Origin: an uncultured Clostridia bacterium
GTDB lineage: Bacteria > Bacillota > Clostridia > Oscillospirales > Ruminococcaceae
Direction: 5' to 3'
DNA length: 35,697 nt
NCBI GenBank assembly: GCA_947176675.1
Contig: CAMWRN010000002.1
Location: 1 to 35,697 of the forward strand
Part shown: piece by piece, positions 2,733 to 20,789 of the stretch
Layout: each line of letters starts with the position of its first letter
Position numbering within the stretch: position 1 is the stretch's first letter
The notes under the pieces: generated by a model
The model's input: the letters and a program-made list of their open reading frames with translations, nothing else
What the model was told of the DNA's origin: nothing
Database searches by the model: none
Position numbers and translations under genes: made by a program

Positions 2733-3560
2733 ATGAACGAAATAATTGAAGTCAAGCAGCTGCCGATCATTGTGGAGCAGCTCCAAACGATAAAGGCGAA
2801 CGTGACCGCAAGAGTGAACGACGCGTTAAGCCTTGACTGCACGGAGGATACCGTAAAAGCGGTTAAAAGCGCGAGGTCTGACCTTAACAAGGAGTTTAAG
2901 GATTGGGAAGCAAGGCGCGGCGAGGTAAAAAGGGCGATAATGTCCCCCTATGAACAATTTGAGGCGGTCTATAAGGACTGCATTACCGACGTTTTCAAAA
3001 AAGCAGATACCGAATTAAAGGACAAGATCACGGAGGTCGAAAACGGCGTAAAAGAGCGCAAATCTGCGGAGGTAAAAGAGTATTTCATCGAATACGCTCA
3101 GAGCCGCAATATTGATTTTCTGACCTTTGAAAGGTCGGGCGTAAAGGTCGGCTTGTCCGATAGTCTCAAAAAGCTTAAAGAACAGGCAAAGGCTTTTGTT
3201 GACCGCGTTTCAGACGATTTGAACCTAATTGAAACACAGGAACACAGCACGGAAATACTTGTGGAGTACAAGCGGTCTCTTAACGCGTCCGCGGCGATCA
3301 CAACGGTTATTGACCGTTACAAGGCTATTGAAGCGGAAAAGGAACGGGAAGCTGAAAGGCAGCGGCTTGACCGGCAAGCCAAGGAAGCCGAAAAGGCGGT
3401 CGACGAAATTATTACGGCTCCCGATGAGCCTGTTATTGCACCGCTGACGGTTGAAGAAAGTGATCCCGTACTTACGCTTATGTTTAAAGTTACCGCGCCC
3501 AAAAGCAAGCTGAACGAGCTCAAAACATTTTTGATAAACGGAGGATATGATTATGAATAA
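2733..3560 (+). CDS. DUF1351 family phage protein
   Basis: GGAGG then ATG at 2733; MNEIIEVKQLPIIVEQLQTIKANVTARVNDAL.., directly upstream of recT. Confidence 0.75.
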   Translation: MNEIIEVKQLPIIVEQLQTIKANVTARVNDALSLDCTEDTVKAVKSARSDLNKEFKDWEARRGEVKRAIMSPYEQFEAVYKDCITDVFKKADTELKDKITEVENGVKERKSAEVKEYFIEYAQSRNIDFLTFERSGVKVGLSDSLKKLKEQAKAFVDRVSDDLNLIETQEHSTEILVEYKRSLNASAAITTVIDRYKAIEAEKEREAERQRLDRQAKEAEKAVDEIITAPDEPVIAPLTVEESDPVLTLMFKVTAPKSKLNELKTFLINGGYDYE

Positions 3561-5958: not shown

Positions 5959-6816
5959 ATGTCTGAAATAAAATCGGCAGGAAATATTATCGAAAGCATT
6001 ATGTGTAAGGCCGAAAGCGGTATTCCGAAAAACAAGGCTGACTACATAAACGATGAGGACGGCTTACTTTGGTGTGGAAAATGCCATACCCCGAAGCAAT
6101 GTAGAATAACAATGCTTGGCAGGATTTACACGCCCTACTGCCTTTGCAAATGCGGTCAGGAACGTCTTGCGGAGGAAAAGGCAGAACGCGAGCAGCAGGA
6201 ACGGTTCGCAGAGGGTCAGCGTCTTAAAACGGTCAGCGGAATGTCCACCGCTCTTTTGCAGAACAGATTTGAGGGCTACCGTGTTACGGCGGAAAATCAA
6301 AAGGCATACGCTCTTTGCAGACGGTACGCCGAACGCTTCGAGAAAATGCCTAAGAAAAATCAAGGCTTGCTTTTGTGGGGCGGAGTTGGTACTGGCAAAA
6401 CCTTTTCGGCGGCGTGTATTGCCAACGCTTTACTTGACAGAGGCATAAGCGTTGTTATGACAAGCTTTGCGCAAATTTTGGGCAAGGGTAAAGGTTTTGA
6501 CGTTGATAGTGAAACGGCTGACAGACTAAACCGCGCAAAGGTACTCATAATCGACGATCTGGGAGCGGAGAGGAATACCGATTTCGCTCTTGAAAGGGTC
6601 TACAGCATTATCGACAGCAGATATGCGGCGGGAAAGCCTATGATACTTACCACAAACCTTGATTTGTCAGAAATGCAGATGTGTACAGATATTCGGTACA
6701 AACGGGTGTACGAAAGAATTTTGGAGGTTTGTTATCCTGTGAGATTTGCAGGAAATTCCCTGCGGAAAGCGGAGGCGGCGAACAGATTCAGAGAAATGGA
6801 GGAATTTTTGAAATGA
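5959..6816 (+). CDS. dnaC: DnaC-like AAA+ helicase loader
   Basis: Walker A GGVGTGKT, Walker B VLIIDDLGAE; N-terminal Cys cluster. Confidence 0.9.
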   Translation: MSEIKSAGNIIESIMCKAESGIPKNKADYINDEDGLLWCGKCHTPKQCRITMLGRIYTPYCLCKCGQERLAEEKAEREQQERFAEGQRLKTVSGMSTALLQNRFEGYRVTAENQKAYALCRRYAERFEKMPKKNQGLLLWGGVGTGKTFSAACIANALLDRGISVVMTSFAQILGKGKGFDVDSETADRLNRAKVLIIDDLGAERNTDFALERVYSIIDSRYAAGKPMILTTNLDLSEMQMCTDIRYKRVYERILEVCYPVRFAGNSLRKAEAANRFREMEEFLK

Positions 6817-7265
6817 GCGTTATGATAAACGCAGTTATAACGGGCGTTGACGAGGTGAGTTTCACAATTCCCATAGCACCCGTCACAAAGAAAAATCACG
6901 GTCGTATCGTGATGTGCGGAAGATATCCGAAGTTGCTGCCGAGCGAAGCATATGAGCGGTACACAAAGGCGGCAATGCCGTTTCTGAAAGTGATACATAG
7001 TTTTGCGAAGATGATTGACAGTCCCGTGAACCTGAAATGCGTTTTTTACCTTGACAAGCGGCGTAAGAGTGATTTGGCTGGTTACTTACAAGCTGTTCAG
7101 GACTTGCTTGTAGAGTCTGGGATATTGGCGGACGATAACCGTAATATCGTGGCTTCTGTTGACGGAAGCGCGGTGCTGTACGACAAGGCAAATCCACGGA
7201 CGGAGGTCACGATTACCCGAAAGGAGAATTACGAGCAATGGGTGTCGAAAAATGAAAATAAATAA
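6813..7265 (+). CDS. rusA: RusA-family Holliday junction resolvase
   Basis: KRRKSDLAGYLQAVQDLLVESGILADDNRNIV; ATG at 6813. Confidence 0.85.
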   Translation: MSVMINAVITGVDEVSFTIPIAPVTKKNHGRIVMCGRYPKLLPSEAYERYTKAAMPFLKVIHSFAKMIDSPVNLKCVFYLDKRRKSDLAGYLQAVQDLLVESGILADDNRNIVASVDGSAVLYDKANPRTEVTITRKENYEQWVSKNENK

Positions 7266-12624: not shown

Positions 12625-12856
12625 ATTAAAACCTTGCCCGTTTTGCGGGGGAAAGGCAAGACTAAAAAGGTTAAGAGGTGGTTACAAAACAAACCCAACT
12701 ACAGCAATTTTTGATAGTTGGCAAGTAGTTTGCCAAAGTAATTGTTGCCGAACTTCTGAATTTGAGGACGAAATTTACCACGCAGACAACGGAGAAGTTG
12801 TTGTTAAGCACAACGGCGCGGAGGAAGCTGCGGAAACTTGGAATAAAAGGGTATGA
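12617..12856 (+). CDS. Lar-like restriction alleviation protein (copy 2)
   Basis: MIELKPCPFCGGKARLKR...VVCQSNCCR...AAETWNKRV. Confidence 0.75.
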   Translation: MIELKPCPFCGGKARLKRLRGGYKTNPTTAIFDSWQVVCQSNCCRTSEFEDEIYHADNGEVVVKHNGAEEAAETWNKRV

Positions 12857-14052
12857 AAGGTATGATTAGCCCCAAACAGCGAAAAATCCTCGCTTTCCCA
12901 CACACCAATTACGACGCTCTTATTTGCGACGGAGCGATAAGGTCGGGAAAGACGGCTATTATGACTATAGCCTTTATAGACGACGCTATGAGGCGTTACA
13001 ACGGTCAGCGATTTGGCATATGTGGTAAAACTGTTGACAGCGCAATAAAAAATATCATTGTGCCGTATATTAGCACGGCGTATGCAAAAAGAAAATACCG
13101 TTTGCAATGGAAACGCTCCGAAAAGGTGTTAATTGTAAGCAAAGGCAAAAAGTCAAATATCTTTGAAATTTTTGGTGGTCGTGACGAAAGCAGCTTTGCC
13201 CTCATTCAAGGTCGTACCCTTGCAGGTGTGCTTATTGATGAGGTTGCTTTAATGCCGCGCTCTTTTGTGGAGCAAGCTTGCGCCCGTTGCTCCGTTGACG
13301 GCTCTAAACTGTGGTTTAACTGCAACCCAAACAGCCCGCAACATTGGTTTTATTTGGAGTGGATAAAAGAGGCAAGAAGTAAGAATGCCCTGCACTTGCA
13401 TTTTGACCTTGAAGATAACCCGTCCTTGACGGAAAGCGTTATAAACCGATACAAAAACGACTATAAAGGCGTGTTTTATCAGCGTTATGTGTTAGGTCAA
13501 TGGTGCGTTGCAGAGGGCTTGGTGTATGATTTCGGCGAGAAAAACATCACCGACGAACGCCCCGAAAGCGGCGAATATTACATAAGTATAGACTACGGCA
13601 CAATGAACCCATTTTCTGCGGGATTATGGTGCTTGCGTGGGGCTAAAGCTGTGCGTATCAAGGAGTATTATTACAACGGCAGAGCAAAGAACATACAACT
13701 TACCGATGAACAATATTGTGATGCCGTGGAGCAGCTTGCCAAAGGCTATGAGGTACGCAAGGTTATTGTTGACCCGTCTGCCGCCTCTTTTATAACCGCC
13801 CTGCGAAAGCGCGGATTTACGGTTATGCAGGCAAAAAACGAAGTCTTGGACGGTATCAGACGGACGGCGACAATGTTAGAAAACGGCAATATAAAGATAC
13901 ACCGCTCCTGCGGAGACACTATTAGAGAGTTTGGCTTGTACAGTTGGGACGAAAAAGCAACGGAAGATACCGTAATCAAAGAAAACGACCATGCAATGGA
14001 CGATATACGTTATTTTGTCAATACGATTTTGAGATATAAGGCTAAGTGCTAA
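12853..14052 (+). CDS. terL: Terminase large subunit (PBSX-type)
   Basis: DGAIRSGKTAIMTIAF (Walker A), GVLIDEVALMPRSF (Walker B), C-terminal nuclease region ISIDYGTMNPFSAGLW. Confidence 0.92.
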   Translation: MKGMISPKQRKILAFPHTNYDALICDGAIRSGKTAIMTIAFIDDAMRRYNGQRFGICGKTVDSAIKNIIVPYISTAYAKRKYRLQWKRSEKVLIVSKGKKSNIFEIFGGRDESSFALIQGRTLAGVLIDEVALMPRSFVEQACARCSVDGSKLWFNCNPNSPQHWFYLEWIKEARSKNALHLHFDLEDNPSLTESVINRYKNDYKGVFYQRYVLGQWCVAEGLVYDFGEKNITDERPESGEYYISIDYGTMNPFSAGLWCLRGAKAVRIKEYYYNGRAKNIQLTDEQYCDAVEQLAKGYEVRKVIVDPSAASFITALRKRGFTVMQAKNEVLDGIRRTATMLENGNIKIHRSCGDTIREFGLYSWDEKATEDTVIKENDHAMDDIRYFVNTILRYKAKC

Positions 14053-14630: not shown

Positions 14631-16034
14631 GTGAAAACCTACCAAGATTTGCAAGAAGTACGGAAAAAGAACGACGAAAAAGAACTTATGTCTTTTCTCA
14701 TAGCCGCCATAAACGACCACAAGAGCAGCGAGATGTACAAAATGGCTATTGAAGCCGATTTGTATATGCGGCATAAAAACGCCTTTATATACAACGCTGT
14801 TGACTTGATAGAGGACGCTTTAGGAAGACGCGTTCCAACTCTTTCGGACGCAGTTAAATGCGCAAGTGGATTTTTCCCGACGTTTGTTATACAGCAAAAT
14901 CAATATCTTTTAGGCAATGGCGTAACGTTTAATAACAAGCAGACAAAGGACAAGTTAGGTGGCGATGAATTTGACGATAAACTGTCGTTTATGGGAGAAG
15001 CTGCGTTGTGGGGCATAGTTTCTTTTGGTTTTTACAATCGAAATAAAGTCGAAACATTTAAGCTTGGCAGTATAGACGAACCGTCGTTTGTTCCATTGTG
15101 GGACGAAGAAAACGGCAGTCTGCGGGCGGGTATACGTTTTTGGCAGATAGACCCGCAAAAGCCGTTGCGAGTTACTCTTTATGAAATGGACGGTATTACT
15201 GAATATATGCAGCGTAAGAGCGAGGAAATGAGGGAATTAACGCCAAAAAAGACGTACAAACAAAAAATATATTCTACCAAAAAAGACGGTGTTATAGGAA
15301 TATCCAACGGAGGCAATTACCCTGCATTTCCAATAGTTCCGTTTTGGGGCAATCCCGAACACCAAAGCGAACTTGTAAGCATAAAAGGCAAAATAGATAT
15401 GTACGACCTTATTTCAACAGGTTTTGCGAGGGACGAACAAGAAGCGGCTACTATATATTGGACTATCAGTAATGCGGGAGGTATGGACAAAAAAGATCTC
15501 AAAGAATTTGTTGAAAATCTTAGAGTTGTTCGCGCAGCAAACACAAGCGAACAAACGAGGGTAGAAGCGCATACTGTTGAAGTTCCGTATCAAAGTCGTG
15601 AAACTTATTTGAACCGCCTTGAAAACGATATGTACAGAGATTTTATGGCGTTAAATCTTAGAGATATATCGGCAGGGAACAACACGGCAACCGCTATAGA
15701 AGCCGCATACGAAACTCTGAACAATAAGGCAGACCGTTACGAATACTGCGTAAGGCAATTTATAAAGGGCTTGTTAGAACTTGCGGGAGTGGACGACGCT
15801 CCCACGTTCAAACGCTCTAAAATTGTAAATGTTGCGGAACAAACAAACGCGGTTCTTGCTATGGGAAATTACATTGATGATAGGACGGCGTTAAATTTGT
15901 TCCCTCTTATTTCTGTTGATGAAGTGGACGAAATTCGCGCTCGAAAAGCAGAGGAGGAAATGGGACGGTATGAAGATACAGCGGCTGAGGAACAGGAAGA
16001 ACCGCTCGGAAATACAAGCAAGGAGGCTGAATAA
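14631..16034 (+). CDS. Portal protein (SPP1 gp6-like)
   Basis: KCASGFFPTFVIQQNQYLLGNGV...; position after TerL; GTG start. Confidence 0.85.
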   Translation: MKTYQDLQEVRKKNDEKELMSFLIAAINDHKSSEMYKMAIEADLYMRHKNAFIYNAVDLIEDALGRRVPTLSDAVKCASGFFPTFVIQQNQYLLGNGVTFNNKQTKDKLGGDEFDDKLSFMGEAALWGIVSFGFYNRNKVETFKLGSIDEPSFVPLWDEENGSLRAGIRFWQIDPQKPLRVTLYEMDGITEYMQRKSEEMRELTPKKTYKQKIYSTKKDGVIGISNGGNYPAFPIVPFWGNPEHQSELVSIKGKIDMYDLISTGFARDEQEAATIYWTISNAGGMDKKDLKEFVENLRVVRAANTSEQTRVEAHTVEVPYQSRETYLNRLENDMYRDFMALNLRDISAGNNTATAIEAAYETLNNKADRYEYCVRQFIKGLLELAGVDDAPTFKRSKIVNVAEQTNAVLAMGNYIDDRTALNLFPLISVDEVDEIRARKAEEEMGRYEDTAAEEQEEPLGNTSKEAE

Positions 16035-16196: not shown

Positions 16197-17165
16197 ATGC
16201 CCGACAAGGCACACAAACAAACCGATAAAAAACTCTTGAAAATGGAGCAGCATATCAAGGATATATACGCACAGGCAGAGGGTGATATGCGGGCAAAGTG
16301 GGAGGAGTTTATGGAGAACGCCGAGAAACGCACCGTAAAGCTCCGTGAGCGGCTTGAAGCGGCTTTAAAGGGTAATGACCCCAAAGAGATAAAAGAGGCA
16401 AGAGCGGCATTACAGCAGCGTTTAGAGTACGTCACGTTCCGCAATGAGCAGTACAAGAAAATGGTGGAGCAAATGGTGGCAAACTATGAACACGCCAACG
16501 AAATCGCCCTCGCATACATAAACGGCGAATTGCCCGAAATTTATACCTTGAATTACAACTATATTGGTAAGGATATAGAAAAACAAGTCGGCAGGAACGT
16601 CCAGAAAGCCTTTGCAAAAGAATACTCTTTTACATTGGTAGACCAAAACACGGTTTATCTGCTTGCCAAAAAGAATAAAAGCCTCTTGCCGTACAAAAAA
16701 GTCAACGTGCCTAAAGACTTGCGCTGGAACACCAAACAGATAAACGCGCAAGTCATGCAGGGTATTTTGCAAGGCGAAAGTATGCACAAAATAGCTGCAC
16801 GTCTGCAAACCGTCACGGACATGACCTCCTCCGCCGCCATACGCAACGCCCGTACTATGGTTACGGGAGCGGAAAATGCAGGACGTATGCGCGCTGCGGA
16901 TAAAGCCATTGATGACGGCGTGGTTATGAAAAAATCGTGGCTTGCAACGCACGACGAACGTACCCGTGACTGGCATATGGACTTAAACGGCGTGGAAGTT
17001 GAGAACGACGAACCGTTTGAGAATGATTATGGTAAGATTATGTACCCAGGCGACCCCCACGCACACCCTGCAAACGTCTATAATTGCCGTTGTACATTGG
17101 TTTATGTCGTTGTTGGAATTAAAAAGCCAAACGGTGAAATTGTATACTTCAAGGGAGGTAAATAA
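16197..17165 (+). CDS. Phage head morphogenesis protein (SPP1 gp7 / Mu gpF-like)
   Basis: C-terminal TRDWHMDLNGVEVENDEPF..MYPGDPHAHPANVYNCRCTLVYV. Confidence 0.9.
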   Translation: MPDKAHKQTDKKLLKMEQHIKDIYAQAEGDMRAKWEEFMENAEKRTVKLRERLEAALKGNDPKEIKEARAALQQRLEYVTFRNEQYKKMVEQMVANYEHANEIALAYINGELPEIYTLNYNYIGKDIEKQVGRNVQKAFAKEYSFTLVDQNTVYLLAKKNKSLLPYKKVNVPKDLRWNTKQINAQVMQGILQGESMHKIAARLQTVTDMTSSAAIRNARTMVTGAENAGRMRAADKAIDDGVVMKKSWLATHDERTRDWHMDLNGVEVENDEPFENDYGKIMYPGDPHAHPANVYNCRCTLVYVVVGIKKPNGEIVYFKGGK

Positions 17166-17695
17166 TGGGTAAGGAAATAACGAACGTAACTATAACTGAC
17201 AATACGGGTTTAGTCCGTGAGGCTTTAGCAAGAGCGACAAGACAAGCTCTTGCAGCAATAGGGACAACGGCAGAACGATATGTAAAAGAAAATATGACAT
17301 ACGACACTACACCTCCTAAGCCTCCTATTGATACGGGATTGTTAAGAAATTCTATGACTTATGTCGTTTCGGGAGAAGAGGCGCATATAAAAAATTATAA
17401 GGCTGATAAAGGCGACGAAAGCGGCGAATATTCTGGAACAGCTCCCGCAACGCCCAAAAACACCGTATACGTGGGAACAAATGTAGAATACGGCGTTTTT
17501 ATTGAGGAGGGAACGGGTATTCACGCCGCAGGAAACAAAGGCAGAAAAGACCCGTGGGTTTATACCGACGAAAAAACAGGCAAAAAACGTGTTACGGCAG
17601 GATATACAGCCCGTCATATGATACGCCGAGCTGTAACGGAGCATACGGACGAATATAGGGAGATTGTCAAGCAAACATTTAAGGCTAACGAGTAA
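17165..17695 (+). CDS. HK97 gp10-like protein
   Basis: PPIDTGLLRNSMTY...VYVGTNVEYGVFIEEGTG...GYTARHMIRRAV. Confidence 0.8.
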   Translation: MGKEITNVTITDNTGLVREALARATRQALAAIGTTAERYVKENMTYDTTPPKPPIDTGLLRNSMTYVVSGEEAHIKNYKADKGDESGEYSGTAPATPKNTVYVGTNVEYGVFIEEGTGIHAAGNKGRKDPWVYTDEKTGKKRVTAGYTARHMIRRAVTEHTDEYREIVKQTFKANE

Positions 17696-18840: not shown

Positions 18841-18848
18841 ATATTATC

Positions 18849-19068
18849 CTCGCTCTAAGCGTTGAGTGAGAAGAACCAAGCGTGGTTATTGTTGAGAAAT
18901 CAGCAGTAATCACGCTTTTGCTTTTATGTGGTGGCGGAATAGGTAGACGCAAGTGGTTCGGGCGTGAGAACCGTTCGGAGTGTGCGCACACGAAGAACAA
19001 AAGACGCTATGCAAGGTGCAAATCCTTGCCCGCATACAACGATAAAACCCGCTTATGCGGTTTTATAA
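18849..19068 (+). ncRNA. Structured noncoding region: two hairpins, tRNA-Leu-like element, terminator-like hairpin
   Basis: CTCGCTC/GAGTGAG (18849-18870); AAGCGTGGTTATT/AGTAATCACGCTT (18878-18917); tRNA-like 18925-19037; CCGC-TTAT-GCGG-TTTTAT near 19049-19066. Confidence 0.6.
18925..19037 (+). tRNA. tRNA-Leu-like element lacking a canonical anticodon arm
   Basis: Acceptor TATGTGG/CCGCATA; TG-GCGGAATAGGTAGACGC D-arm; T-arm GCAAGGTGCAAATCCTTGC; no standard 5+7+5 anticodon arm, no CCA. Confidence 0.4.
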
Positions 19069-19114
19069 ATCATTCTTAGGGTAGCTCCCGTAACAGCGAG
19101 AAAGGAATGTAATT

Positions 19115-19732
19115 ATGGCAGATTTTGAAAGCATTATTAAAAATCATTGCAGCGAAGACGGGGGTATTCCCGCCGAAGCTATTGCCAAACTGACAAAGGC
19201 TATCAGCACTACTGTTGGAAATGAGTTTGTTGAGAAAACCCGTTATAAGGCAAAACTGGAGGAAATCGAAACGCTCAAAACAGAAAAGCAGACCGCCGAA
19301 GACAGCGCAACAACCGCTGAAAGCTGGAAAAAAAAGTACGAAACACTTGAAGCAGAAACAAAGGCAAAGGAAACAAGGTCGGCAAAGGAAAAGGCGTACC
19401 GCTCTTTGCTTGAAGCCGCAAGCGTGGACGGTAAACATCACAATATGCTTGTCAAGGCGGCGAAAGAGGATATTGACGGCATTGAACTTGACAAGGACGG
19501 CAATATCAAGAACGCCGACAAACTGACAGAGAAAATTAAAACCGATTGGTCGGGCTTTATTGTCGGCGTAACCGAAATAGGGGCAAACACCCCTAATCCG
19601 CCTGCGAACAATGGCAGCAAAATGACGAAAGCCGATATTTATGCTAAGGACGATAACGGCAAGTATAAGCTTGACACAACAACACGGCAAAACGCTCTTG
19701 CCGAAATGTTGAGAAACGAAGGAGGAACTTAA
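19115..19732 (+). CDS. Phage scaffolding protein
   Basis: Charged coiled-coil protein directly before the capsid gene; VDGKHHNMLVKAA, GANTPNPPANNG. Confidence 0.7.
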   Translation: MADFESIIKNHCSEDGGIPAEAIAKLTKAISTTVGNEFVEKTRYKAKLEEIETLKTEKQTAEDSATTAESWKKKYETLEAETKAKETRSAKEKAYRSLLEAASVDGKHHNMLVKAAKEDIDGIELDKDGNIKNADKLTEKIKTDWSGFIVGVTEIGANTPNPPANNGSKMTKADIYAKDDNGKYKLDTTTRQNALAEMLRNEGGT

Positions 19733-19736
19733 TTTT

Positions 19737-20789
19737 ATGGCGGTAAAAGAAAACCTTACCATGACGAGTGATTTTACAATCAAAGCCCGTGAAGTGGACT
19801 TTGTAACCCGTTTTACGGACACTTGGGAAGCTCTACGCGAAATTATGGGCATTATGCGCCCTATTGAAAAAACACCCGGCACAACACTTACAAGTTACAC
19901 GGCAAGTGTTACATTGGAAAACGGCGACGTTCCCGAGGGCGAAGAAATTCCTTACAGCAAAGCAAAAGTTAAACCTGTTTCATACGCAGACCTTAAACTT
20001 AAAAAGTATGCTAAAGCTGTTACTATTGAAGATGTTGAAAAATTTGGAGCAACCGCAGCGGTGCAAAAAACGGACGAAGCGTTTTTGTTTGAGTTGCAGA
20101 GCGTTGTAATGGACAACTTTTACAGCTTTATTTTGACGGGCTCGCTCACAAAAACAGCTGTAAATCTCCAGTCGGCGATCGCCTCTGCTATCGGCTTGGC
20201 AAAGGACAAGTTTAAGAAAATGCACAAAAATTCGTCCGAAATAGTGGTAATTGTCAACACTTTGGATATTTACGACTATTTGGCTGCAGCGGGAATTACC
20301 ACACAAAATGCTTTTGGTATAGAATACCTTAAAAATTTTTTGGGCGCAGCCTCTATGATTATATCGTCCGAAATACCGCAAGGCAAAGTTATTGCAACTC
20401 CTGCCGGCAACATTGATTTGTATTACATTAACCCCGCACACAGCGATTTTAAACAGCTTGGACTTGATTACACAGTACAGGGCGAAACAAACCTCATAGG
20501 CTTCCACGCAAACGGCGACTATTCTCACGCGGTAGGCGAAAGCTTTGCGCTTATGGGTATGAAGCTGTGGGCTGAATATCTTGATGGTATCGCTGTTGTG
20601 TCTATACAAGGGGCAGGCGGCGAGGGCGGTGAAAACGATAACCTCGAAACGCAAGACCTCGAAGCTCCCGACCTTAGCGGTATGTCCAAAGACGAACTGC
20701 TTGCCTATGCGGCAGAAAACGGAGTAAAGGGCGTAAGCAATGCAGACAAGAAAGAAAATATAATCGCTGCTATCGAAGCGGCTATGTAA
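19737..20789 (+). CDS. Major capsid protein with C-terminal HeH/Rho-N-like extension
   Basis: Position after scaffold; TDTWEALREIMGIMRPIEKTPGTTLTSYTA...; C-terminal MSKDELLAYAAENGVKGVSNADKKENIIAAI. Confidence 0.75.
   Translation: MAVKENLTMTSDFTIKAREVDFVTRFTDTWEALREIMGIMRPIEKTPGTTLTSYTASVTLENGDVPEGEEIPYSKAKVKPVSYADLKLKKYAKAVTIEDVEKFGATAAVQKTDEAFLFELQSVVMDNFYSFILTGSLTKTAVNLQSAIASAIGLAKDKFKKMHKNSSEIVVIVNTLDIYDYLAAAGITTQNAFGIEYLKNFLGAASMIISSEIPQGKVIATPAGNIDLYYINPAHSDFKQLGLDYTVQGETNLIGFHANGDYSHAVGESFALMGMKLWAEYLDGIAVVSIQGAGGEGGENDNLETQDLEAPDLSGMSKDELLAYAAENGVKGVSNADKKENIIAAIEAAM

Follow-up and report, generated by a model that had tools for sequence, protein, structure and literature searches.

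Phage RNAs with a tRNA-Leu-like core and no anticodon arm: a family traced from an insertion in the leader of a head scaffolding gene

The interval before the head scaffolding gene of a phage or prophage from an uncultured Clostridia bacterium holds a series of RNA structures, one of which resembles a tRNA, and this raises the question of what a tRNA-like fold is doing among morphogenesis genes. The DNA that we analysed is a stretch of 35,697 nt (the window), whose gene content is that of a phage or prophage morphogenesis region. It carries genes for the terminase large subunit (12853-14052), the portal (14631-16034), a head morphogenesis protein (16197-17165) and a connector protein (17165-17695). 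The connector gene is followed by two genes without known function, the RNA region, the gene of the head scaffolding protein (19115-19732, + strand; PF06810, E 2.6e-14; phrog_194) and that of the major head protein (19737-20789, + strand; phrog_544, E 8e-40). A small gene at 12608-12856 matches the restriction alleviation protein Lar (PF14354). The RNA region (18841-19114, 274 nt) gave a better fold than 200 out of 200 shuffled sequences (z -3.4). A sequence-only reading had described four local structures here as parts of a single structured RNA of about 220 nt. All four are present: a 7-bp hairpin (18849-18870), an 18-bp hairpin with T-runs after it (18878-18917), the tRNA-like RNA (18925-19036) and a terminator-like hairpin (about 19043-19066, + strand). 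Folded alone, the tRNA-like element was not above shuffles (z -0.4) in nested folding, which cannot score its pseudoknot.

The core element is an RNA of 112 nt on the + strand (18925-19036), as defined by a covariance model (R1) and by the covariation of its family. Its sequence is TATGTGG-TG-GCG-GAATAGGTAGA-CGC-(60 nt)-GCAAGG-TGCAAAT-CCTTGC-CCGCATA. It comprises, all on the same strand, a 7-bp acceptor (18925-18931 with 19030-19036), U8-G9 (18932-18933), a 3-bp D-stem of the Leu type (18934-18936 with 18948-18950), a 6-bp T-stem (19011-19016 with 19024-19029) and the T-loop UGCAAAU (19017-19023). The anticodon arm is absent from the element, base 73 is C and CCA is not encoded. ARAGORN, including its tmRNA scan, made no call at the element in the window, and the Rfam search of the window returned no family at gathering score and no tRNA family even at E 5. 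Model R1, which was built without the window, scored the element with 79.6 bits (E 1.1e-17).

The same scaffold leader was found in Flavonifractor phage Chenonceau (L002) and in two further contigs (L354, L355), with the tRNA-like element absent. The extent of the insertion was determined by a removal scan against these empty-site relatives, and the best alignment was obtained after deleting window bases 18926-19040 (+ strand), with the same optimal boundaries for all three. Judged from these alignments, the tRNA-like element is a discrete insertion of about 115 nt into an older leader. The hairpins on either side occur in relatives without the tRNA-like RNA and so do not belong to it, and the single RNA of about 220 nt gives way to a separate insertion in an older leader. 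That leader, on the + strand, consists of two small hairpins with AAGCGU loops (18846-18893), also present in relatives without the element, a long hairpin with T-runs that is likely a terminator (18878-18924), and the terminator-like hairpin as its second; a conserved 46-nt scaffold leader with the ribosome-binding site within a possible hairpin (19069-19114) follows on the same strand. The second small hairpin overlaps the long hairpin, so that the two structures are alternatives, and this overlap of hairpin and terminator before the scaffold gene looks like an attenuator. The fold of the 46-nt leader was no better than that of shuffles. This leader and its ribosome-binding site hardly differ between relatives that share only about 60% identity in their capsid proteins, and this suggests regulation.

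The element was missing from every one of about 75 capsid relatives of the window phage that have the same head genes, and a conserved role in the scaffold leader of this phage lineage was rejected on this ground. A search with relatives of the scaffold protein yielded no loci. One capsid-relative phage contig contains a group I intron (L333:7001-7212; RF00028, 65.7 bits). Phage SPP1 has a member of the family with a different middle in the same gene interval as the window, before scaffold gene 11. The annotated protein of that interval, gp10, is without known relatives (PMC6316719), and a 55-codon frame in the gp10 interval overlaps the tRNA-like element.

What takes the place of the anticodon arm was read from a comparison with the closest relative of the window element (L110), in which helix a was computed, whereas b and c were identified by eye in the sequences. 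Helix a pairs GGTTC (18955-18959) with GAACC (18968-18972), with a compensatory T-A to C-G change. The 8-nt loop of this hairpin occupies the position of the 'anticodon' loop, and its GGCGT (18961-18965) pairs with ACGCT (19004-19008), just 5' of the T-arm, to form helix b, which has a compensatory G-C to A-T change and ends 2 nt before the T-stem, at the site of the long variable arm in tRNA-Leu. Hairpin c/d pairs GTTC (18973-18976) with GAAC (18995-18998) around an inner GTGTGCGCACAC (18980-18991); helix c shows three two-sided compensatory changes and the inner palindrome is identical. All of these helices lie on the + strand. The compensatory changes thus number one in a, one in b and three in c, with no pair broken, and these five changes between two sequences support an H-type pseudoknot followed by a hairpin in the window. 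The Leu-type D-arm, 7-bp acceptor, strong T-arm, GGTTC-loop-GAACC and GTTC..GAAC hairpins and missing CCA of the sequence-only reading are all as it had claimed, and so are the hairpins in place of the anticodon arm; the plain loop that it drew between GGTTC and GAACC is engaged in the putative pseudoknot. Across the family the middle domain is hypervariable (28 to 123 nt), and a helix with its 3' strand ending 1-2 nt before the T-stem was present in 187 of 214 sequences. In our own reading the inner topology varies, with a probable pseudoknot in some subfamilies and nested hairpins in others. The middle seems to hold an extra canonical T-arm hairpin with a TTCGAAT-type loop in L204, L256, L016, L169 and L056.

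The family was collected in several searches. A strict pattern run on 399 genomes of the window's phylum matched solely the window's own genome. Scanning viral contigs with the letters of the D-arm and T-arm gave at least 120 loci, a scan of 85,462 prokaryote species yielded 74, of which about 64 belong to Firmicutes, and a scan with the T-arm only added at least 120 further entries. At least 215 distinct middles or relatives were obtained in all, from phages and prophages mainly of Bacilli and Clostridia. The named carriers are SPP1, phi3T, Grass, SPG24, Bacillus KLEB27-1, Enterococcus EFDG1, Weissella WC29P3, Listeria PSA, B025 and P70, and Leuconostoc LN34 and Ln-9, with Herelleviridae among them. 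Bacillus phage SPG24 and Leuconostoc phage Ln-9, found through short matches, have tRNA-likes with the same D-arm, the same odd T-loop and unrelated middles. Another genome of the window's family holds a second member of 156 nt with a longer middle (L384; G399 C36:6004-6159; 54.5 bits). Listeria phage P100 has a degraded or divergent copy on the minus strand within a tRNA cluster (L302:36403-36543, 36 bits), with the T-loop UGAAAAU and the GG of the D-loop lost.

Model R1 was built from 40 diverse relatives with the window excluded. In these 40 sequences, 99.7% of the pair cells in the acceptor, D- and T-stems were standard-paired, all 7 acceptor pairs showed two-sided changes, and the covariation score was 0.722 against 0.174 for shuffled alignments (reached by 0 of 500 shuffles) and at most 0.149 for slid controls. 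Since the 40 relatives had been chosen partly for pairing, a second test was made on 196 members picked by D-arm and T-arm letters only: 154 form 7/7 acceptor pairs, compared with 8 of 196 when partners were swapped. U8, A14, A15, G19 and U48 were present in all 215 members listed, several D-arm letters being preset by the search, A17 being free and U48 being free in most of the set. Among the same 215 members listed, CCA is encoded in two, and base 73 is A in 118, T in 61, C in 20 and G in 16. ARAGORN called none of 242 copies a tRNA, and the family is absent from Rfam 15. The earlier view that the element is not a decoding tRNA, and is a tRNA mimic with a tRNA-Leu-like core, is borne out by at least 215 relatives with covariation and no anticodon arm; homologs were found, and neither ARAGORN nor Rfam reports an ordinary tRNA-Leu. 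A description of the family was not found in the open-access full-text literature, a scope that stops short of subscription papers and outside preprints, and the family seems not to have been described before.

The closest known RNA is the type II tRNA-Leu(UAA). As many as 19 of the 19 D-arm bases agree with it, compared with at most 13 for any other tRNA class, and the family keeps U8, A14, A15-U48, G18-G19 and C56 as well as a helix 2 nt before the T-stem, at the place of the long variable arm. Model R1 gives ordinary tRNA-Leu genes 30-40 bits, so that the family is kin to tRNA-Leu and R1 searches need a cut-off above this range. Unlike tRNA-Leu, the family has no anticodon stem-loop, a variable base 73, an unencoded CCA, a 6-bp T-stem and an acceptor/T stack of 13 bp; its T-loop UGCAAAU with G55 occurs in only 1 of 259 canonical tRNAs of the same loci. 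The 5-bp anticodon stem with 7-nt loop of canonical tRNA-Leu is lacking in the window element. Because CCA is unencoded and base 73 varies, leucine charging is not conserved across the family. An acceptor/T stack of 13 bp resembles that of tRNA-Sec and disfavours EF-Tu. The family shares this stack and the long extra arm with tRNA-Sec (RF01852) but has no UCA anticodon arm and a 3-bp D-stem of the Leu type, and only one member (L044) was weakly matched by RF01852, with 26 bits against a threshold of 47. In tmRNA, a tRNA-like end is combined with a longer structured domain with pseudoknots in place of the anticodon stem; the family differs in being of the Leu type, not the Ala type, and in having no ARAGORN or Rfam match. 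Bacterial Y RNAs of the YrlA kind have a permuted tRNA order. They resemble the family as non-decoding tRNA mimics, whereas the ends of the family form an acceptor in the normal tRNA order. The staphylococcal non-proteinogenic tRNA-Gly has an altered T-loop and is used outside translation, while it keeps its anticodon arm and is charged with glycine; the altered T-loop is common to this tRNA and the family, and the anticodon arm is found in tRNA-Gly only. GOLLD and ROOL are structured RNAs without known function from phages and prophages, often near tRNA islands (PMC12286853), and differ from the family in being far larger and not tRNA-like.

The surroundings of the copies follow a recurrent pattern. 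Late transcription activators are frequent as the nearest gene upstream (phrog_36 in 36 of 129; RinA 22, ArpU 14). In iterated searches covering 207 loci, ArpU-like genes were upstream in 52, on the same strand in all, HNH genes were downstream in 28, and the terminase large subunit was downstream in 47 and upstream in 4. One RNA subtype precedes the scaffold gene in the window and an HNH gene in L110, so the RNA is not tied to one gene and has moved between gene intervals. A canonical tRNA was present within 1 kb of 48 of the 242 copies, on the same strand in 48 of 48, with some gaps of 2-11 nt, and two tandem pairs of copies have gaps of 3 and 7 nt. Gaps this short leave no room for separate promoters and match the layout of tRNA genes whose transcripts RNase P and RNase Z separate. 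Promoter-like sites upstream of copies were not enriched (14% versus 19%); terminators downstream were (16% versus 4%). Antitermination by the element is unsupported, since terminators follow in only 16%. An origin as an attachment site was ruled out, most copies being away from integrases and virulent phages carrying copies as well.

Many copies also have company of their own kind. Another canonical T-arm was found within 200 nt of 50 of 198 copies, compared with 9 of 495 control positions, and many of these neighbouring T-arms belong to non-canonical tRNA-likes of 44-98 nt that have an acceptor, a D-arm and a T-arm and no anticodon arm. A perfect 7-bp acceptor was formed in 34 of 64 non-canonical T-arms near copies, versus 3.9% with shuffled upstream sequence. 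These companions have several D-arm types, and the Leu-type family may belong, as one branch, to a broader group of phage tRNA-likes that do not decode. Short anticodon-less tRNA-likes within 300 nt of members were seen in L243, L135, L168, L187, L073, L099 and others, and in SPP1 (L126, about 3117-3158) such a tRNA-like falls on a segment that PMC6316719 gives as a terminator (6780-6824). In Listeria phages the stretch immediately upstream of the element belongs to the known sRNA families rliG and rli62 (L130:2258-2409, L280:8760-8907, L300:1759-1996, L298:2753-2888); in L130 and L280 the tRNA-like element seems to have taken the place of the 3' part of rliG, and an mcrA motif follows the element in L298, L300 and L235. 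Listeria phage CKA15 makes very abundant unannotated RNAs that its authors likened to Y RNAs (PMC12282133). A link between these RNAs and the family was rejected, also as evidence for expression, because the relative P100 has only the degraded copy.

For the function of the element we tentatively favour, at a little under even chances, a non-decoding tRNA-like phage RNA that is cut out by host tRNA enzymes and acts in trans as a tRNA mimic. Its ancestor would be a tRNA-Leu, probably tRNA-Leu(UAA). The acceptor/T stack of a tRNA is kept, as is the elbow between D-loop and T-loop, and in place of the anticodon and variable arms stands the hypervariable structured domain, in the window with a pseudoknot. 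Usually without a promoter of its own, it would be transcribed within longer phage RNAs; host RNase P would then cut the 5' end and RNase Z the 3' end, and the freed RNA would accumulate separately and occupy a host tRNA-binding factor in trans during infection. Excision by these two enzymes is plausible in view of the 2-11 nt spacing to real tRNAs. LeuRS is one candidate target because bacterial LeuRS does not read the anticodon, while a strictly Leu-specific target fits poorly with the varying base 73 and with the other D-arm types seen among the companion tRNA-likes. Against a trans-acting mimic, copies strongly favour the interval that separates late activator genes from packaging genes, which could mean a role in cis, and no partner is suggested by the hypervariable middle. 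A broader reading, which we put forward as possible and with some reserve, is that Gram-positive phages encode a large class of host-matured, non-decoding tRNA-likes that serve in trans as tools against a tRNA-binding factor or tRNA-targeting defence; this class would comprise the Leu type and several other D-arm types, often side by side.

The main rival, which we judge rather unlikely, holds that the fold is a processing or stability signal within the late transcript, where an RNase P/Z cut or a folded barrier would split upstream RNA from packaging or scaffold/capsid mRNA and set the stability of both. The position between late activator and HNH/terminase genes (ArpU-like 52; terminase large subunit 47 versus 4) and the lack of an own promoter agree with this, and the very short anticodon-less tRNA-likes nearby would suffice for cutting. 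However, cutting does not need a structured middle domain of 44-120 nt, copies occur not only in many different gene intervals but also in tRNA arrays, and the approximately 75 capsid relatives manage without the element. Another reading, to which we give a small chance, is a decoy against defence that would draw off host nucleases or toxins directed at the tRNA elbow, acceptor or T-arm. This would fit a family that is confined to phages, has diversified, does not decode and often lies in clusters with other tRNA-likes; the decoy for anticodon nucleases that had been suggested from the sequence is unlikely, as there is no anticodon loop for them to attack.

We consider a structural RNA of packaging or assembly, with a role comparable to that of phi29 pRNA, very improbable. 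Members sit close to the scaffold gene in the window and in SPP1, to HNH/terS in other loci, and to the ends of linear genomes in PSA and Leuconostoc phages, positions that would suit such a role, but copies in tRNA arrays and unrelated intervals, the absence from capsid relatives with the same head genes and the conserved tRNA elbow bases speak against it. The missing anticodon and CCA and the degraded P100 copy could point to a decaying tRNA pseudogene without function; this is contradicted by the covariation, with strong compensatory change in every helix across very divergent copies, and deserves next to no credence. Equally scant is the probability of a bacterial Y RNA (YrlA) partnered with a Ro-type protein. 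A passage of PMC12282133 cites YrlA tRNA mimics reported in phages; the Rfam search gave no YrlA match in the window or in 13 member loci, and the acceptor of the family is in the normal tRNA order. A Ro-type gene was not among the top families of nearest neighbours in a scan of the nearest genes only.

tRNA mimics as a kind are already known, and the family itself seems to be new. It is an RNA family in hundreds of phages and prophages, including the laboratory models SPP1, phi3T and PSA, that ARAGORN and Rfam miss. In SPP1 the annotated interval of gp10 coincides with a family member, and the genetic tools of this phage and of B. subtilis allow a direct test of what a non-decoding phage tRNA mimic does. 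If the RNA acts in trans, it would represent a new phage route to interfere with host tRNA biology or defence.

The hairpins of the older leader have a distribution of their own. The AAGCGU hairpin pair recurs in phage late regions, being found in the window (18846-18924) and in the L002, L354 and L355 leaders, and further pairs were located at L002:10759-10806, L355:7981-8028 and L347:7280-7327. The two small hairpins of the window gave a weak match to gut-2 RNA (RF02990, 26 bits, below threshold), and the pairs together score 26-30 bits against a threshold of 39.8; gut-2 may be a phage late-gene element.
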